Shown piece after piece: positions 10,799-18,088 of a stretch of DNA of 49,572 bases; the stretch's first letter is position 1, and every line of letters begins with the position of its first letter. The DNA lies in NCBI GenBank assembly GCA_028713535.1, contig JAQTOC010000001.1:1-49572 (forward strand), written 5' to 3'. A program made the position numbers and the translations under genes. The notes below the pieces were generated by a model that made no database searches, was not told the origin of the DNA, and worked only from the letters and a program-made list of their open reading frames with translations. This stretch comes from Candidatus Nanoarchaeia archaeon. GTDB taxonomy: Archaea; Nanobdellota; Nanobdellia; SCGC-AAA011-G17; JACPNG01.

Positions 10799-11341
10799 AT
10801 GGTATCTCCTTTGGCGAAGTCTATATACTTCTTAGAAGATTTAGGGTTTTTTGATATAATACTGCCATTTTTATTGACTTTTGTAATTGTTTATGCGGTA
10901 TTGGATAAAACAAAGATACTAGGAAAAACTGAAAAAGACAAACCAAAGACAAATGTCAATGCAATGCTTGCTTTTGTTGTTGCATTATTTGTAGTTGCAA
11001 CAAAACAGATAACTGACGCGTTCAAAATTTCATTGCCATGGGTTGTTCTGATACTATTGGCAATATTAATGTTCATGATGCTTGCAGGAGTTGCATTTGG
11101 AGACAAGGAATTCACATTTGAGGACAACAAAGGATGGAGAACCTTCCTAATAATAGTTGCTTTCATCGCAATCGTAGCAATATTCTTGCATGGATTTGGA
11201 TGGCTTGAGCCTTTCATTGGTTTTATTATTTACAAGTGGGCAGATACGCTTATAATGGGGATAGTATTATTGTTTATTATAATCGGAACAATTTTAATTG
11301 TTGTTGGCAAAAAACCAAAGGGGGAAAAAGGGGGTGAGTAG
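10799..11341 (+). CDS. Multi-TM membrane protein, tandem paralog 1 (secretion/pilus-like locus)
   Basis: 180 aa; IILPFLLTFVIVYAVLDKTKILGK...NAMLAFVVALFVV shared with the next two genes. Confidence 0.7.
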   Translation: MVSPLAKSIYFLEDLGFFDIILPFLLTFVIVYAVLDKTKILGKTEKDKPKTNVNAMLAFVVALFVVATKQITDAFKISLPWVVLILLAILMFMMLAGVAFGDKEFTFEDNKGWRTFLIIVAFIAIVAIFLHGFGWLEPFIGFIIYKWADTLIMGIVLLFIIIGTILIVVGKKPKGEKGGE

Positions 11342-11343
11342 TA

Positions 11344-11925
11344 ATCGCTGATATTGATTTTGTTTCATGGCTGACTACATGGGAGAACATAGGAGTTTAC
11401 AATGTGCTCTTGCCTTTCTTATTAGTGTTTACCTTGGTATTTGCAGTACTGCAAAAAATAAAATTATTCGGGAAAGATGAAAGGAACATAAAGGGGATTA
11501 ACGTTGTTGTCTCTTTGGTTATTGCATTATTGTTTGTAAGAAACCAGTACTTAGTAGAATTGGTAAACAGGTTCTTGCCTAATGTTTCAATGTTTCTGGT
11601 TGTAATACTGATGTTTCTCTTACTTATCGGCTTGTTTGGAGGGTCTTCAAAGTGGAAGGGATGGATGCTTGGGTTGGCTACAATAGTTTCATTAATATTT
11701 GTCATCTGGGCATTGACAGCAGAGAAATTATTTGGATCAAGCGGGCCAAGCTGGCTATCAAACATGGACTCCCAAACAAAAGCAACAATATTGTTTGTGG
11801 CTGTATTTGTAGTGGTAATCTGGCTGGTTGTCAGAGAACCAAAAAAAGAAGAGGATTCTAACTGGGCAACCAAATTATTGAAAGGAGTTGCAGAGGGAGT
11901 TAAGGAGGACGAATCAAAGAAATAA
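11344..11925 (+). CDS. Multi-TM membrane protein, tandem paralog 2; probable non-canonical ATC start
   Basis: The 11404 GTG start would truncate the conserved LPFLL block; in-frame upstream sequence reads (I/M)ADIDFVSWLTTWENIGVYNVLLPFLL with GGTGA 6 nt before ATC at 11344. Confidence 0.6.
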   Translation: MADIDFVSWLTTWENIGVYNVLLPFLLVFTLVFAVLQKIKLFGKDERNIKGINVVVSLVIALLFVRNQYLVELVNRFLPNVSMFLVVILMFLLLIGLFGGSSKWKGWMLGLATIVSLIFVIWALTAEKLFGSSGPSWLSNMDSQTKATILFVAVFVVVIWLVVREPKKEEDSNWATKLLKGVAEGVKEDESKK

Positions 11926-11927
11926 GA

Positions 11928-12451
11928 TGGCAACACTCCTTGATTTTACTTTTTTCAGCTTTTTGAAACCATTCTTGATATTTGTTCTTGTACTCATTAT
12001 TTTATACGCAATACTTGCCAAGACCAATCTTTTTGGAAGCGCTGCACTTAATGGAATAGCTGCGTTCGTAGTTGCGCTTTTGTTTATGCTAGTCCCTGGG
12101 GTAAGTGACTTGCTTAGCATAGCTGCACCATGGTATGTTGTTTTAATGGTGGTAATCGTCTTGATATTGCTTGTATTCATGTCTGTGGGTGTTGGAGGCG
12201 AGGCGATAGCGGGAGTCTTCCAGCAATCGTGGATGATCTGGCTTATCGTTATCATTGTTGTAGTTGGAGTATTTGGATATGCTGCATCGAAAACTCTGGG
12301 CGGAGAAGTTCAGGGCTTGACACAGGGAGAAGAAGGCCAGGATGTAACCACAGACATTGGAAAAGTCTTGTTCAGCCCAAAGCTATTAGGAGCCTTATTT
12401 ATTCTTGTTGTAGCTGCACAGGCCATACGATTGATTAGCGGAAGAAAATAA
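11928..12451 (+). CDS. Multi-TM membrane protein, tandem paralog 3
   Basis: ATG at 11928 (MATLLDFTFFSFLKPFLIFVLVLIILYAILAKTNLFG) two bases after the upstream stop. Confidence 0.7.
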
Positions 12452-13144
12452 TTATTTTTTGTAATTTTTCTTTAGTTCATCTGTGATTCTGTCAAGTTCT
12501 TTTATGTTTGTTGTTAATGGCTCGATTATCCTTTCCATTACTTTTTCCAGAGCTTTTATATCTGAGCTTACCTCTGACAAAGTTGAAGAATATTCGTTTA
12601 CTTTTGACAAAACTGCTGCCTGCAAACTATCAAATCTGTTTGTTATCCTTACAATCTCCTGCTTCACAGAAAGGAGATCATCTTTTACTCTTGCTTTCCA
12701 GACATCAATATCACCTATGCCTTGGATGACCTGCTGCCATTTTTCCTCTATCAATGATTCTATTAATTCTTCGTTTGAGGTGTCCATTGCAACAGGCTGC
12801 TGCTGGACCTGAGGATAGCTAAATGACTGGGGCTGGTTAGTATACTGAGGGATTTCTTGAGGTGGTTCTGGAGTTGGAACTGGAATGTCCTGGTCTAACA
12901 TTGAAGACTGCATTCCCGGCTGATTATTTGCATTTGTTTGATAGGATCTGTTTTGCTGGTTCATTTTTTCTGTTGGAGAAAAGTCCTGATATTCAACACC
13001 GGTTTTAATGTTCATCTGAGTTATTGCTTCTGCAATGTCCAGTGGTGAGAAACCTTCCTCTTTTAATATCCTCCTTGTTTTATCTTCATCGAACCCCTGC
13101 TTCTTCAAATCTAGGGCTCGTTCGAATGGGGGCTCGTTATTGAT
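12452..13144 (-). CDS. Protein with N-terminal UBA-like helical domain, Pro/Gln-rich linker and C-terminal coiled coil; probable ATC start
   Basis: ORF track start at 13108 (TTG) cuts into the repeated helical motif ERALDLKKQGFDEDKTRRILKEEGFSPLDIAEAI; frame continues to ATC 13144 with GGTGA 6 nt upstream. Confidence 0.6.
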   Translation of the reverse strand: MNNEPPFERALDLKKQGFDEDKTRRILKEEGFSPLDIAEAITQMNIKTGVEYQDFSPTEKMNQQNRSYQTNANNQPGMQSSMLDQDIPVPTPEPPQEIPQYTNQPQSFSYPQVQQQPVAMDTSNEELIESLIEEKWQQVIQGIGDIDVWKARVKDDLLSVKQEIVRITNRFDSLQAAVLSKVNEYSSTLSEVSSDIKALEKVMERIIEPLTTNIKELDRITDELKKNYKK

Positions 13145-13509
13145 TTTAATTCACCTCTCAGTATTTTCCTAACATCTTCTTCAGTTATAAACTTTACAGG
13201 GTTCCAGAGGTTAATATACTTTTCTAAAACTTTTACTGACTCTTTTTTTGCAAAAACATTCATTTCCTTAATTATTTTTTCTGTAACTTCCTTCATCTCA
13301 TACAGATTTCTTTTCAATTCAACAATTTCCTCGTTCATGTTTTTTATTTCCTTTGAAAGTTTCTGGTATTCTGTAATCATATTCTTGTTCATGATCAAAA
13401 CTTTCTCTCCGTAAGTATTATGTTTGGATTCGAGAACCCTGATTCTTGCGGTAATATCACTAAGCATGTATGAAAGATCTTGTTGTGGTGTTGGGTCAGT
13501 AGTAGCCAT
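13111..13509 (-). CDS. Coiled-coil protein, FlaC/D/E-like (tentative)
   Basis: 132 aa; heptad-rich middle, C-term VLEKYINLWNPVKFITEEDVRKIL; divergent from the pilus ATPase. Confidence 0.55.
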   Translation of the reverse strand: MATTDPTPQQDLSYMLSDITARIRVLESKHNTYGEKVLIMNKNMITEYQKLSKEIKNMNEEIVELKRNLYEMKEVTEKIIKEMNVFAKKESVKVLEKYINLWNPVKFITEEDVRKILRGELKSITSPHSNEP

Positions 13510-13586
13510 CTTAATCGAAAACTATTTAATATAAGTATAATTACTTATTTTTAAAAGTTTATTAAATATTATGTTGACCTTAAAAA

Positions 13587-15872
13587 GTGGTGATTATGGT
13601 TTCTGCTAAGGAAAGAGGTTATGAAGTTGTAAGAGAAGGACAGGAATCTATCCTTAAGATAGACGCTGAGAACTGGCCTTTTTCACCTTCATTGGAAGAT
13701 AATGCACTAACCATGTCCAGAACAATAGATTTCCTAGTGGAAGTTCCAAACGTTTCAAGACTGGTGTTCACACAGCGACGAAACTATATCTATGACTTTA
13801 ACCAAACCTTGATGCTTATTGAGATATCTAACTTATACAAAAGATGGGTAAAACAAAACAATGTTTTAACGCTTTCAAATCTTGAGAGATATTCAGGATT
13901 AATTCCTTTCTTAGGCGGGTGGAGACAGAGAATGCAGTATATCGTGCTTAACCTCATGAAAAGCGATCCAATCGGGGCGTATGTTGAGCTCAAGAGATTT
14001 ATCAGGGAGGAAAAAATAAACTCAAAGAATATCCCATTAAATGCGATAGATGGCCAGAATGTTTTCTTGTCCTTACTTGATGAAATGAGGACTATGCTGG
14101 AAAACACAAAATTAGTTGGAAATGTCAAAAATAACCTTGCAGGATACCATGTTGGCGAGAGAATGATTTACACATTGATATTCAGGCCGGCAATATCCCC
14201 TGATTTTATATTCACGCAGTTAATGGCAAGAGTACCACTTGATGCAGAGCAGATGGATGTTTATACTGTTGAAAATGCAGAGGTTAACATTTACAGGGTT
14301 GAAAGCGATATAAAATATCTGTATCATTTAACTCCGCCCGAATTCAAGTTAACAGAGGACAAATATGAATTACTGGATCTAGCAAGAACTGTGCTTGCTG
14401 AACATAAACCCCGAGAGGAAGAATTCTTGGATCCTGAAAAAATGAGAATGACTTTCTTTAATATTGGTAGAGATTTATTGCAGGAACTAGCGCAAACAAG
14501 AGGGATGGATGTAAGTTATAATGAACTGGTTGACTTGGCAAATATCCTTGTGAGATATACTGTTGGGTTTGGATTAATTGAAATTTTATTGGGAGATGAC
14601 AGAATACAGGACATTACAATTAACGGACCTATTGGCGAAACCCCTGTTTTTATTGTACATCAGGATTTTGATGAATGCTTTACAAATATAATTCCAAGCA
14701 GGCAGGATGCAGAGGGGTGGGCATCTAAGTTCAGGATCTTAAGCGGCAGGCCACTTGATGAGGCCAATCCGATATTGGATACTGAATTATCATTGCCTGG
14801 TTCAAGGTCAAGAGTTGCAATAATACAACAGCCATTAAACCCTTTTGGATTGGCGTATGCATTCAGGAGACACAGAGACAGACCATGGACGTTGCCTTTA
14901 TTTATTGAGAACAGAGCAATAAGTCCGCTAGCTGCAGGATTACTTTCATTTTTAATAGACGGAGCAAGAACATTGTTGTTTGCTGGAACAAGAAGCAGCG
15001 GAAAAACCTCATTGTTGGGAGCAGCTTTAGTAGAAATCATGAGGAAATACAGAATAATCACTGTTGAAGACACTTTAGAACTTCCAACCGAAGCACTCAG
15101 AAAAATGGGATATAACATACAGCCAATGAAAGTAAGAAGCGCTCTTACAAAGATGGGTTCTGAAATTGCTGCCGATGAGGGAATAAGGACAACATTAAGA
15201 CTTGGAGACTCAAGCTTAATAGTTGGAGAAATAAGATCGAGCGAGGCTTTTGCATTGTATGAGGCGATGAGGATTGGCGCATTAGCAAATGTTGTTGCAG
15301 GAACAATACACGGAGACAGTGCATATGGAGTATTTGACAGAGTAGTTAATGACCTAAAAGTTCCACCGACGAGCTTTAAAGCTACAGATATCATAATAAT
15401 CTCAAATCCAGTCAAGAGCCCAGATGGCCTGCACAAATGGAGAAGAGTAATGAGCATTACAGAAGTAAGGAAGCACTGGAATACAGACCCGATTGCTGAA
15501 AGAGGATTTGTTGAACTCATGAAATACGATCCTACAACAGATTCACTTGAGCCTACTGCAGATTTATTAAACGGAGACTCTGAAATTGTGAAAAACATCG
15601 CTGGAAATGTAAGGGAGTGGGTTGGGAACTGGGAAGCTGTATGGGAAAACATTTTATTGAGAGCGAAAATAAAAGAGGCACTGGTAAATTATGCAAAGGA
15701 AACTAAAGACCATGAGCTAATTGAGTCTGGGTTTGTTATTGAATCAAATGACATATTCCACAGGTTATGCGATAAAACACTGGATGAAACTGGAAAAATT
15801 GACAGCAAAAAAATATTTTTTGAATGGGATGAATGGATAAGAAGAAAGATCAGGGAGAAGAAAGAGTCATGA
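13587..15872 (+). CDS. Type II/IV secretion system ATPase (TadA/FlaI/PilT-VirB11 superfamily)
   Basis: 761 aa; LLFAGTRSSGKTSLL Walker A, RIITVEDTLELP, SSLIVGEIRSSEAFALYEAMRIGA, AGTIHGDSAYGVFDRV. Confidence 0.92.
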   Translation: MVIMVSAKERGYEVVREGQESILKIDAENWPFSPSLEDNALTMSRTIDFLVEVPNVSRLVFTQRRNYIYDFNQTLMLIEISNLYKRWVKQNNVLTLSNLERYSGLIPFLGGWRQRMQYIVLNLMKSDPIGAYVELKRFIREEKINSKNIPLNAIDGQNVFLSLLDEMRTMLENTKLVGNVKNNLAGYHVGERMIYTLIFRPAISPDFIFTQLMARVPLDAEQMDVYTVENAEVNIYRVESDIKYLYHLTPPEFKLTEDKYELLDLARTVLAEHKPREEEFLDPEKMRMTFFNIGRDLLQELAQTRGMDVSYNELVDLANILVRYTVGFGLIEILLGDDRIQDITINGPIGETPVFIVHQDFDECFTNIIPSRQDAEGWASKFRILSGRPLDEANPILDTELSLPGSRSRVAIIQQPLNPFGLAYAFRRHRDRPWTLPLFIENRAISPLAAGLLSFLIDGARTLLFAGTRSSGKTSLLGAALVEIMRKYRIITVEDTLELPTEALRKMGYNIQPMKVRSALTKMGSEIAADEGIRTTLRLGDSSLIVGEIRSSEAFALYEAMRIGALANVVAGTIHGDSAYGVFDRVVNDLKVPPTSFKATDIIIISNPVKSPDGLHKWRRVMSITEVRKHWNTDPIAERGFVELMKYDPTTDSLEPTADLLNGDSEIVKNIAGNVREWVGNWEAVWENILLRAKIKEALVNYAKETKDHELIESGFVIESNDIFHRLCDKTLDETGKIDSKKIFFEWDEWIRRKIREKKES

Positions 15873-18088
15873 TTGAAAAAGAAGAAGTAAGAAAAATCCT
15901 GGAGAAATATGACAAAAGATTGAGAAGCAGCATTGATCTTGAGGCCACTACACTTCCGGACAATCAGGCATTTTCAAAAGAGTATGAAATCTTCAAGGAA
16001 GAAGCATTGGATAAAACCAGCACTTTTTATGAGAGAGCATGCAAAAAAGCAGGCAAAATAATTAATGTTGCACCAAAGGAAGCAGAAAGAAAAAAATTAG
16101 AGGAGAGTATTGAGACTGCACACTTGGATGTTACCCCTGCTGAAGCTTATAGCTTTGGGGTCATAGCCGGGATGATCATAATTGTACTTGCATTAATTGT
16201 TGCTATATTCCCATTTATCTTTAATATGGTCATTGCAGGAGGAGCAGACACAGCAAAATTAAAAATATTCTTTCCATTTATCTTAATGATAGCTGGGGCT
16301 TTTATAATCAAGCCAGTTTCCAATCTTCCGCATTACCTTGCAAACAGATGGAGAACAGAAGCAGGAAACCAGATGGTTTTATGCATCTTGTATATTGTCA
16401 TGTACATGAGGCACACTTCCAATATTGAACATGCAATAAAATTTGCAGGCCAGCATGTTGGATATCCTTTATCATTGGACTTAAGAAAAGTATTCTGGAA
16501 TGTTGAATCTGGAAAATATTCCACGATGAAAGAAAGCCTGGAATCATATCTTAGCGGATGGAAGGATTATAACCTTGAATTTGTAGAAAGCTTTCATTTA
16601 ATTGAATCCAGTCTGTATGAGAGCAGTGAGCAGAGAAGACTTGAGTTATTGGATAAATCTTTAGAAGTAATGCTTGAGGGAAGCTACAACAGAATGCTGA
16701 ACTATGCACATAATCTACAATCCCCAATTACGATGCTGCATATGCTTGGAATAATTTTGCCATTACTTGGCTTAGTTGTTTTTCCATTAATTGCTGCATT
16801 TTTGCAGGGAGCATTGAAGTGGTACCACTTGATGATATTATACAATATTTTATTGCCTGTAATAGTATTCTTTGTAGGGACAAACTTATTGTCTAAAAGA
16901 CCGGTTGGGCAGGCAAACACAGACATATTAAAACAAAATCCAAGCCTGAAACAATTTCAAAAATTAAACATTGGAAGAGAGGACAAACCAATTTATGTCA
17001 ATCCAAAGCACATTGCAATTTTTATAATATCTATTTTTGTTTTACTCGGATTCTTGCCATTAATATTACATTATGCAAATCCATCGTTGGATACATTGAC
17101 TGTTGGAAGCGGAGCTTTTTCATTCAGTGTTTTGGATTACAAATGCACTACTGTTGGGAGCGTCAGAACATGTGTTGGACCATATGGACTTGGAGCATTA
17201 TTATTAAGCTTGCTGATTCCTTTAGGGATTGCAATAGGGCTTGCATTTTATTTCAGGACCATAACAAAGAGATTAATGATAATTAAGAAAGAAACTGAAA
17301 CACTGGAGCAGGAATTTTCAGGAAGTTTATTCCAGTTGGGAAATGCTGTTGAAGACGGGGTTCCTGCAGAACTTGCTTTTGAAAAAGTTGCTGGCAATCT
17401 TGCTGGCACAAGAACAGGAGATTTTTTCAAACTTGTCGGATTAAACATAAGAAAACTTGGGATGGGGATACAGGATGCAATCTTTGACAAGCAAAGGGGA
17501 GCAATATTGAGGTATCCATCTGGACTGATTGAGAGCAGCATGAAGGTCCTTATTGAAGGTTCGAGAAAAGGGCCAAAGATTGTTGCAAAAAGCTTGATTA
17601 GCATCAGTGATTATGTTGACAGAATAGAAAAAGTAAACAGGAGACTGAAAGATTTACTTGCGGATATTATCTCAAGCATGAAAAGCCAGATCACATTCTT
17701 GACTCCTGTAATTGCAGGAATAGTTGTAGGTGTTGCAACGATGGTCACAACAATCATAAATAAATTAAGCGGGACACTTGCTGGAAGCGGAGCTGATGCT
17801 TCTCAACAAATGGGGGGGCTTGCAGGGATGGCAGACATACTGGACATTACGAATGTGATCCCTGGATTTTATTTTCAATTGGTTGTTGGGTTGTTTGTAG
17901 TTGAGATGGTCTACATATTAACTGTACTTGGCAACTCAATTGAAAAAGGAGTTGATAAACTAAGCGAGCAAAATGCTATGGGAAGAAACATGCTTATCGG
18001 AGTTGGACTTTATGTTTTAATCTCATTGATAGGAATAATCGTGTTCACAATACTTGCTGGAGGAATCAATGTTGTTGCAACAACTTAG
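15833..18088 (+). CDS. Type II secretion system F-family membrane protein (TadC/FlaJ-like)
   Basis: 751 aa with two T2SSF-like cytoplasmic segments separated by multi-TM blocks; alternative start ATG 15869 (MIEKEEV). Confidence 0.85.
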   Translation: MDKKKDQGEERVMIEKEEVRKILEKYDKRLRSSIDLEATTLPDNQAFSKEYEIFKEEALDKTSTFYERACKKAGKIINVAPKEAERKKLEESIETAHLDVTPAEAYSFGVIAGMIIIVLALIVAIFPFIFNMVIAGGADTAKLKIFFPFILMIAGAFIIKPVSNLPHYLANRWRTEAGNQMVLCILYIVMYMRHTSNIEHAIKFAGQHVGYPLSLDLRKVFWNVESGKYSTMKESLESYLSGWKDYNLEFVESFHLIESSLYESSEQRRLELLDKSLEVMLEGSYNRMLNYAHNLQSPITMLHMLGIILPLLGLVVFPLIAAFLQGALKWYHLMILYNILLPVIVFFVGTNLLSKRPVGQANTDILKQNPSLKQFQKLNIGREDKPIYVNPKHIAIFIISIFVLLGFLPLILHYANPSLDTLTVGSGAFSFSVLDYKCTTVGSVRTCVGPYGLGALLLSLLIPLGIAIGLAFYFRTITKRLMIIKKETETLEQEFSGSLFQLGNAVEDGVPAELAFEKVAGNLAGTRTGDFFKLVGLNIRKLGMGIQDAIFDKQRGAILRYPSGLIESSMKVLIEGSRKGPKIVAKSLISISDYVDRIEKVNRRLKDLLADIISSMKSQITFLTPVIAGIVVGVATMVTTIINKLSGTLAGSGADASQQMGGLAGMADILDITNVIPGFYFQLVVGLFVVEMVYILTVLGNSIEKGVDKLSEQNAMGRNMLIGVGLYVLISLIGIIVFTILAGGINVVATT

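Follow-up and report, generated by a model that had tools for sequence, protein, structure and literature searches.

A near-universal, probable DPANN pilus motor locus with accessory membrane and coiled-coil proteins

Gene content of the locus and its motor proteins

The window (the whole stretch of 49,572 nucleotides analysed here) lies at the beginning of contig C1 in an archaeal genome of 873 kb and 28 contigs, and carries a seven-gene cassette in the order TM1-TM2-TM3 (+ strand), CC218-CC132 (− strand) and ATPase-TadC (+ strand). All seven open reading frames of a preliminary description of this DNA were recovered at the same positions and on the same strands and, as stated there, neither a prepilin nor a prepilin peptidase gene lies between 10799 and 18088. 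TM1 (10799 to 11341, +) encodes a 180-aa membrane protein and is the first of three tandem genes, followed by TM2 (11344 to 11925, +) and TM3 (11927 to 12451, +; start ATG 11927). On the opposite strand, CC218 (12452 to 13108, −) encodes a protein with a short N-terminal helical region that is UBA-like by eye, a P/Q-rich linker and a coiled coil, and CC132 (13111 to 13509, −), divergent from the ATPase gene, encodes a coiled-coil protein with a conserved C-terminal motif (LEKYI-x2-WNP-x2-F-[VI]-T among 38 members). The ATPase gene (13587 to 15872, +) encodes a 761-aa type IV pilus (T4P)/secretion ATPase of a DPANN clade within the VirB11/GspE superfamily, and its end is overlapped by 40 bases by the start of the gene for a 751-aa TadC/FlaJ-like platform membrane protein (15833 to 18088, +).

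Near-cognate starts are apparent for TM2 and CC218 (window 11344-11404 and 13108-13144), where homology extends upstream of the first ATG, GTG or TTG. The first canonical start of TM2 is GTG 11404 and its profile match begins at 11356; the true start is probably a near-cognate codon, ATC 11344, which fits here and may be replaced by CTG in one genus mate. For CC218, homology continues upstream of TTG 13108, and translation probably begins at about 13138-13144.

The ATPase matched T2SSE in Pfam (E = 2.9e-13) and, in NCBIfam, FlaI (1e-34, the best family) and TadA (3e-30); the best solved relatives of its profile in the PDB were afGspE (2oap, 1.4e-38) and CpaF (about 9e-32). A conserved N-terminal region precedes the CpaF/GspE-like core. 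Across 40 homologues the residues of the Walker A motif (GTRSSGKTS), Asp box, Walker B motif and His box were invariant or nearly so, leaving intact the boxes that characterize the secretion ATPase of an archaeal T4P machine. The platform protein was recognizable as TadC/FlaJ (T2SSF) weakly by sequence (weak T2SSF matches in 3 of 36 TadC members, and nothing relevant matched by the TadC profile among PDB sequences) and by its predicted fold: the AlphaFold2 model (pLDDT 80, pTM 0.76) comprises two six-helix domains, predicted to be T2SSF domains, and Foldseek matched it to the cytoplasmic domains of EpsF/OutF with a probability of 1.00 (E-values of 0.4-1.2 over the long chain).

Several genomes carry a large in-frame insert in the cassette ATPase, near residue 495-550 of the window protein. 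In a Micrarchaeota sequence (L266:4660-8421) the insert is a LAGLIDADG-domain intein; the others (G024:C21, G059:C23, G144:C3, G122:C7, G048:C2, G084:C29, G013:C16, G076:C9, G095:C71 and G011:C1) were recognized solely by split matches and by the length of the frame.

Conservation and phylogeny of the cassette

Of the 148 genomes drawn from the phylum, 142 encode a cassette-type ATPase (E below 1e-100), and the cassette is near-universal there. In a sample of forty ATPase neighbourhoods (window included), a synteny check that the preliminary description had suggested, cassette order and strands were constant, with TM genes beside the ATPase in 31 neighbourhoods, CC132 in 38, CC218 in 35 and TadC in 36; the TM genes were almost always three in tandem. 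The same arrangement is met again and again in the phylum, and full-length ATPase orthologues share 42-82% identity, so the locus is judged to be more than a product of chance. Synteny of the upstream TraB-M50-PRC genes was found mainly inside the window's order.

Nine tested genomes lacked TM genes beside the ATPase and all nine kept them elsewhere, usually as an intact tandem triplet; CC218 followed the TM genes in some of these genomes and the ATPase in others. No cassette-type ATPase was found in six genomes, and CC218 was missing from five of these. Three of the six had no TM gene (G033, G069 and G131), one had a single TM gene of partial length (G020) and one a single TM gene plus a weak match (G100). 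The sixth (G102) kept TM genes and CC218 without a detected ATPase, perhaps owing to an assembly gap. Since their presence and absence are coupled to the ATPase, the accessory genes are taken to belong to the machine and not to be bystanders. The cassette ATPase was the sole pilus-type ATPase found (E of 1e-5 or better) in 21 of 28 tested genomes, 20 of which kept an A24 prepilin peptidase; in those 21 genomes no better candidate than the cassette is available as the motor that processed pilins would need.

In a tree of 39 ATPase sequences the cassette group received 100/99 support and formed one 100/100 clade together with ATPases of Micrarchaeota and of Methanosarcina, Methanomassiliicoccus and Haloferax; deeper joins were uncertain, with long branches. 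This clade lay apart from most other archaeal ATPases sampled, including a second ATPase of the window's genome, on contig C2. Makarova et al. 2016 (PMC4858521) described a subclade 4F that also occurs in nanoarchaea, where its cognate pilins were not identified, and the cassette ATPase clade is probably that subclade, an assignment that we infer and that does not derive from the paper's own sequences. Archaeal T4P with 4F-like ATPases would thus share an ATPase clade with the DPANN cassette, which differs in adding the TM triplet, CC218 and CC132. Orthologues of the cassette ATPase also occur in Micrarchaeota, with no TM or CC genes adjacent in the readable neighbourhoods, and the TM triplet, CC218 and CC132 were likewise not beside the Methanosarcina or Haloferax ATPases examined. 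In one Micrarchaeota locus an FtsZ-like gene (by eye; L266:8500-9576) lies between ATPase and TadC; ftsZ-like genes have been described in T4P loci of Thermococci and Halobacteria (PMC4858521). In a Nanohaloarchaeota record (L267, genome G159) the cassette ATPase has a TadC paralog on either side, and behind the second paralog come class III-like proteins that include a pilin match (3e-9).

Pilins and the prepilin peptidase

The preliminary description had proposed either a split pilus locus or a secretion machine with its pseudopilins elsewhere, and had suggested searching the genome for a prepilin peptidase and class III signal peptides; class III genes were sought in selected genome stretches and by profile. 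In relatives of the same order, TadC is followed by a same-strand operon of proteins with class III-like N-termini, among them a Cys-rich pilin (N-terminal pattern K[KR][GA]-Q-x-[LI]-S/P-x-N-x-I-V/I...). Comparison of ATPase-match and pilin-match coordinates placed the gene for the Cys-rich class III pilin up to about 12 kb downstream of the ATPase and in the same orientation in 16 genomes (G074, G044, G133, G093, G057, G146, G142, G031, G021, G107, G032, G114, G117, G109, G011 and G035). Outside the window's taxonomic order, the pilin match was mostly to the N-terminal helix only, and pilins rarely adjoin the cassette.

In the window's genome the Cys-rich pilin was found unlinked to the motor, on contig C12 (E = 9.1e-47), with seven genes behind it, most of which have class III-like or N-anchored starts. 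An A24 prepilin peptidase, a family present in 144 of 148 phylum genomes, was found on contig C11 (E = 3e-12). Both searches were therefore positive and, because the pilins are on C12, the peptidase on C11 and the pilins directly after TadC in relatives, the split-locus alternative is supported. The idea that the pilins had been lost was rejected on finding the Cys-rich pilin. The pairing of motor and pilins in the window's genome is carried over from relatives, because the two lie on different contigs here. A second, conventional archaeal T4P locus is present on contig C2 (L036, G000:C2:86000-98978), encoding a 539-aa ATPase, a split TadC and further proteins that bear class III-like signals; since this locus has class III proteins of its own, pilins could be shared between it and the cassette.

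Accessory proteins and possible function

Profile iteration merged all 92 TM proteins into a single family, and TM1, TM2 and TM3 are on this basis considered tandem paralogs of one 5-TM family. The AlphaFold2 model of TM1 (pLDDT 90.8) has about five TM helices and no significant fold match in the PDB or BFVD. Against Pfam and NCBIfam, both the TM and the coiled-coil proteins gave weak, scattered matches only, the coiled coils matching unspecifically. On these family and profile searches the preliminary description was correct in setting the TM and coiled-coil proteins apart from the standard components of an archaellum, and none of the findings that it held would overturn its reading came true: the ATPase motifs are intact, no transport family or solved fold matched the TM proteins, and ArlD/E (PF04659) was absent from the three genus genomes searched (G000, G082 and G098). 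The profile comparison of the coiled-coil proteins with archaellum components that it had recommended was negative for ArlD/E, with hhalign probabilities under 1%, and homology of CC132 or CC218 to ArlD/E was rejected; for ArlC the comparison was limited to Pfam scans. CC132 and CC218 resembled each other weakly (47% probability, with coiled-coil bias likely). CC218 has neither a signal peptide nor a TM segment, and a hydrophobic segment able to serve as a signal was present in 0 of 35 CC218 and 1 of 38 CC132 sequences; because of this, both proteins are probably cytoplasmic.

The locus is real, near-universal in the phylum and in part already published; it probably represents the motor and base of a DPANN T4P whose filament genes have moved elsewhere in the genus, with accessory proteins that are absent from standard pili and archaella. 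By analogy with the known families, ATP hydrolysis by an ATPase hexamer would drive movement of the TadC platform. The platform would in turn extract class III pilins from the membrane after cleavage by the A24 peptidase and pass them into a filament, for which the C12 genes would supply the Cys-rich pilin and the minor pilins as subunits. Their topology and localisation and the pairing of their genes suggest that the three paralogous 5-TM proteins might form a membrane collar around TadC, with CC218 and CC132 as cytoplasmic struts joining the collar to the ATPase. The case for the core pilus motor is strong, and the collar and strut roles are guesses. Members of the phylum are tiny, probably host-dependent archaea, and almost all genomes of this reduced phylum retain the cassette as one of their envelope machines, often as the only pilus motor; it bears on the means by which DPANN archaea attach to, and perhaps break into, their hosts. 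Knowing all of its parts (motor, TM triplet, coiled-coil pair, Cys-rich pilin operon and peptidase) turns this into a testable question, for which the cultivated cluster-2 DPANN "Ca. Nanohaloarchaeum antarcticus" and "Ca. Nanoclepta minutus" would be suited.

The main text of Hamm et al. 2024 (PMC11291902) describes, for cluster-2 DPANN, a pair of conserved T4P loci that include DPANN coiled-coil proteins; of these, "locus 2" comprises CpaF, TadC and two coiled-coil proteins and occurs in Nanohaloarchaeota, Woesearchaeota, Pacearchaeota, Nanoarchaeota and Aenigmarchaeota. The cassette described here has the same CpaF-type ATPase, TadC and two coiled-coil genes in cluster-2 DPANN and very probably is locus 2, as matched by gene content and not by protein sequence. 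The TM triplet and the pilin operon are unmentioned in that main text, and relative to it these two features, the ATPase phylogeny and the cytoplasmic placement of the coiled coils are new. Hamm et al. likened the coiled-coil proteins, via structure predictions, to sigma-1 viral attachment proteins, whereas those of the cassette look cytoplasmic. On a model after theirs, the pilus-like machine would export the coiled-coil proteins as sigma-1-like host attachment fibres outside the cell, which the predictions and the proteomic detection of such proteins in "Ca. Nha. antarcticus" (PMC11291902) support. We consider this unlikely here: the near-complete lack of signal-like hydrophobic segments noted above argues against the published suggestion and favours an intracellular role, and coiled coils yield unspecific matches. 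T4P machines, moreover, handle membrane-inserted class III substrates.

A pilus-less secretion device, in which ATPase, TadC and TM triplet form a protein or DNA export channel with pseudopilins that are short or missing, would account for three conserved polytopic paralogs (unusual for a pilus), for a cassette without its own pilins in the window's genome and for the resemblance of the ATPase to GspE/VirB11 relatives. It is nonetheless quite improbable, given the pilin operons directly after TadC in relatives, the nearly universal peptidase (also where the cassette is the only motor) and a channel without fold support. The archaellum motor (ArlI/ArlJ) likewise combines a homologous ATPase and platform with cytosolic coiled-coil partners, and CC132 and CC218, as cytosolic coiled-coil scaffolds beside a FlaI-like ATPase with NCBIfam FlaI as its best family match, might act like ArlC/D/E in rotating a filament. 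The cassette coiled-coil proteins are, however, not homologous to ArlD/E; together with the absence of ArlD/E genes from the three genus genomes searched and the separate position of the ATPase clade, this makes a rotary motor highly improbable. With the Tad pilus motor CpaF/TadC the cassette shares the ATPase-TadC pairing, and the best PDB matches of its ATPase are afGspE and CpaF; it differs in having a single two-domain platform protein and the additional TM triplet and coiled coils, and no outer-membrane parts are expected.

Within the pilus-motor reading, the TM triplet and CC218/CC132 may constitute a new subcomplex that makes the ATPase/TadC pair a dedicated cell-cell contact machine, a gain marking one large DPANN branch, although this is a tentative and on balance doubtful proposal. 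The TM/CC set was present in Nanobdellota, Aenigmatarchaeota and Nanohaloarchaeota and was not found in Micrarchaeota. Among named archaea reached through an archaeal 16S motif, 5 of 5 "Woesearchaeota" had the TM family, as did records of Pacearchaeota, Parvarchaeota, Aenigmatarchaeota and Nanohaloarchaeota and one further archaeon; it was not found in three Micrarchaeota, and the remaining archaea tested gave no convincing match and two weak partial ones. The window's genome also encodes a fourth TM-family paralog standing alone on contig C5 (G000:C5:40924-41406; L224:8919-9425), next to a 758-aa gene resembling PEP synthase/PPDK by eye, and single extra TM paralogs occur in two further genomes (G148 and G150).
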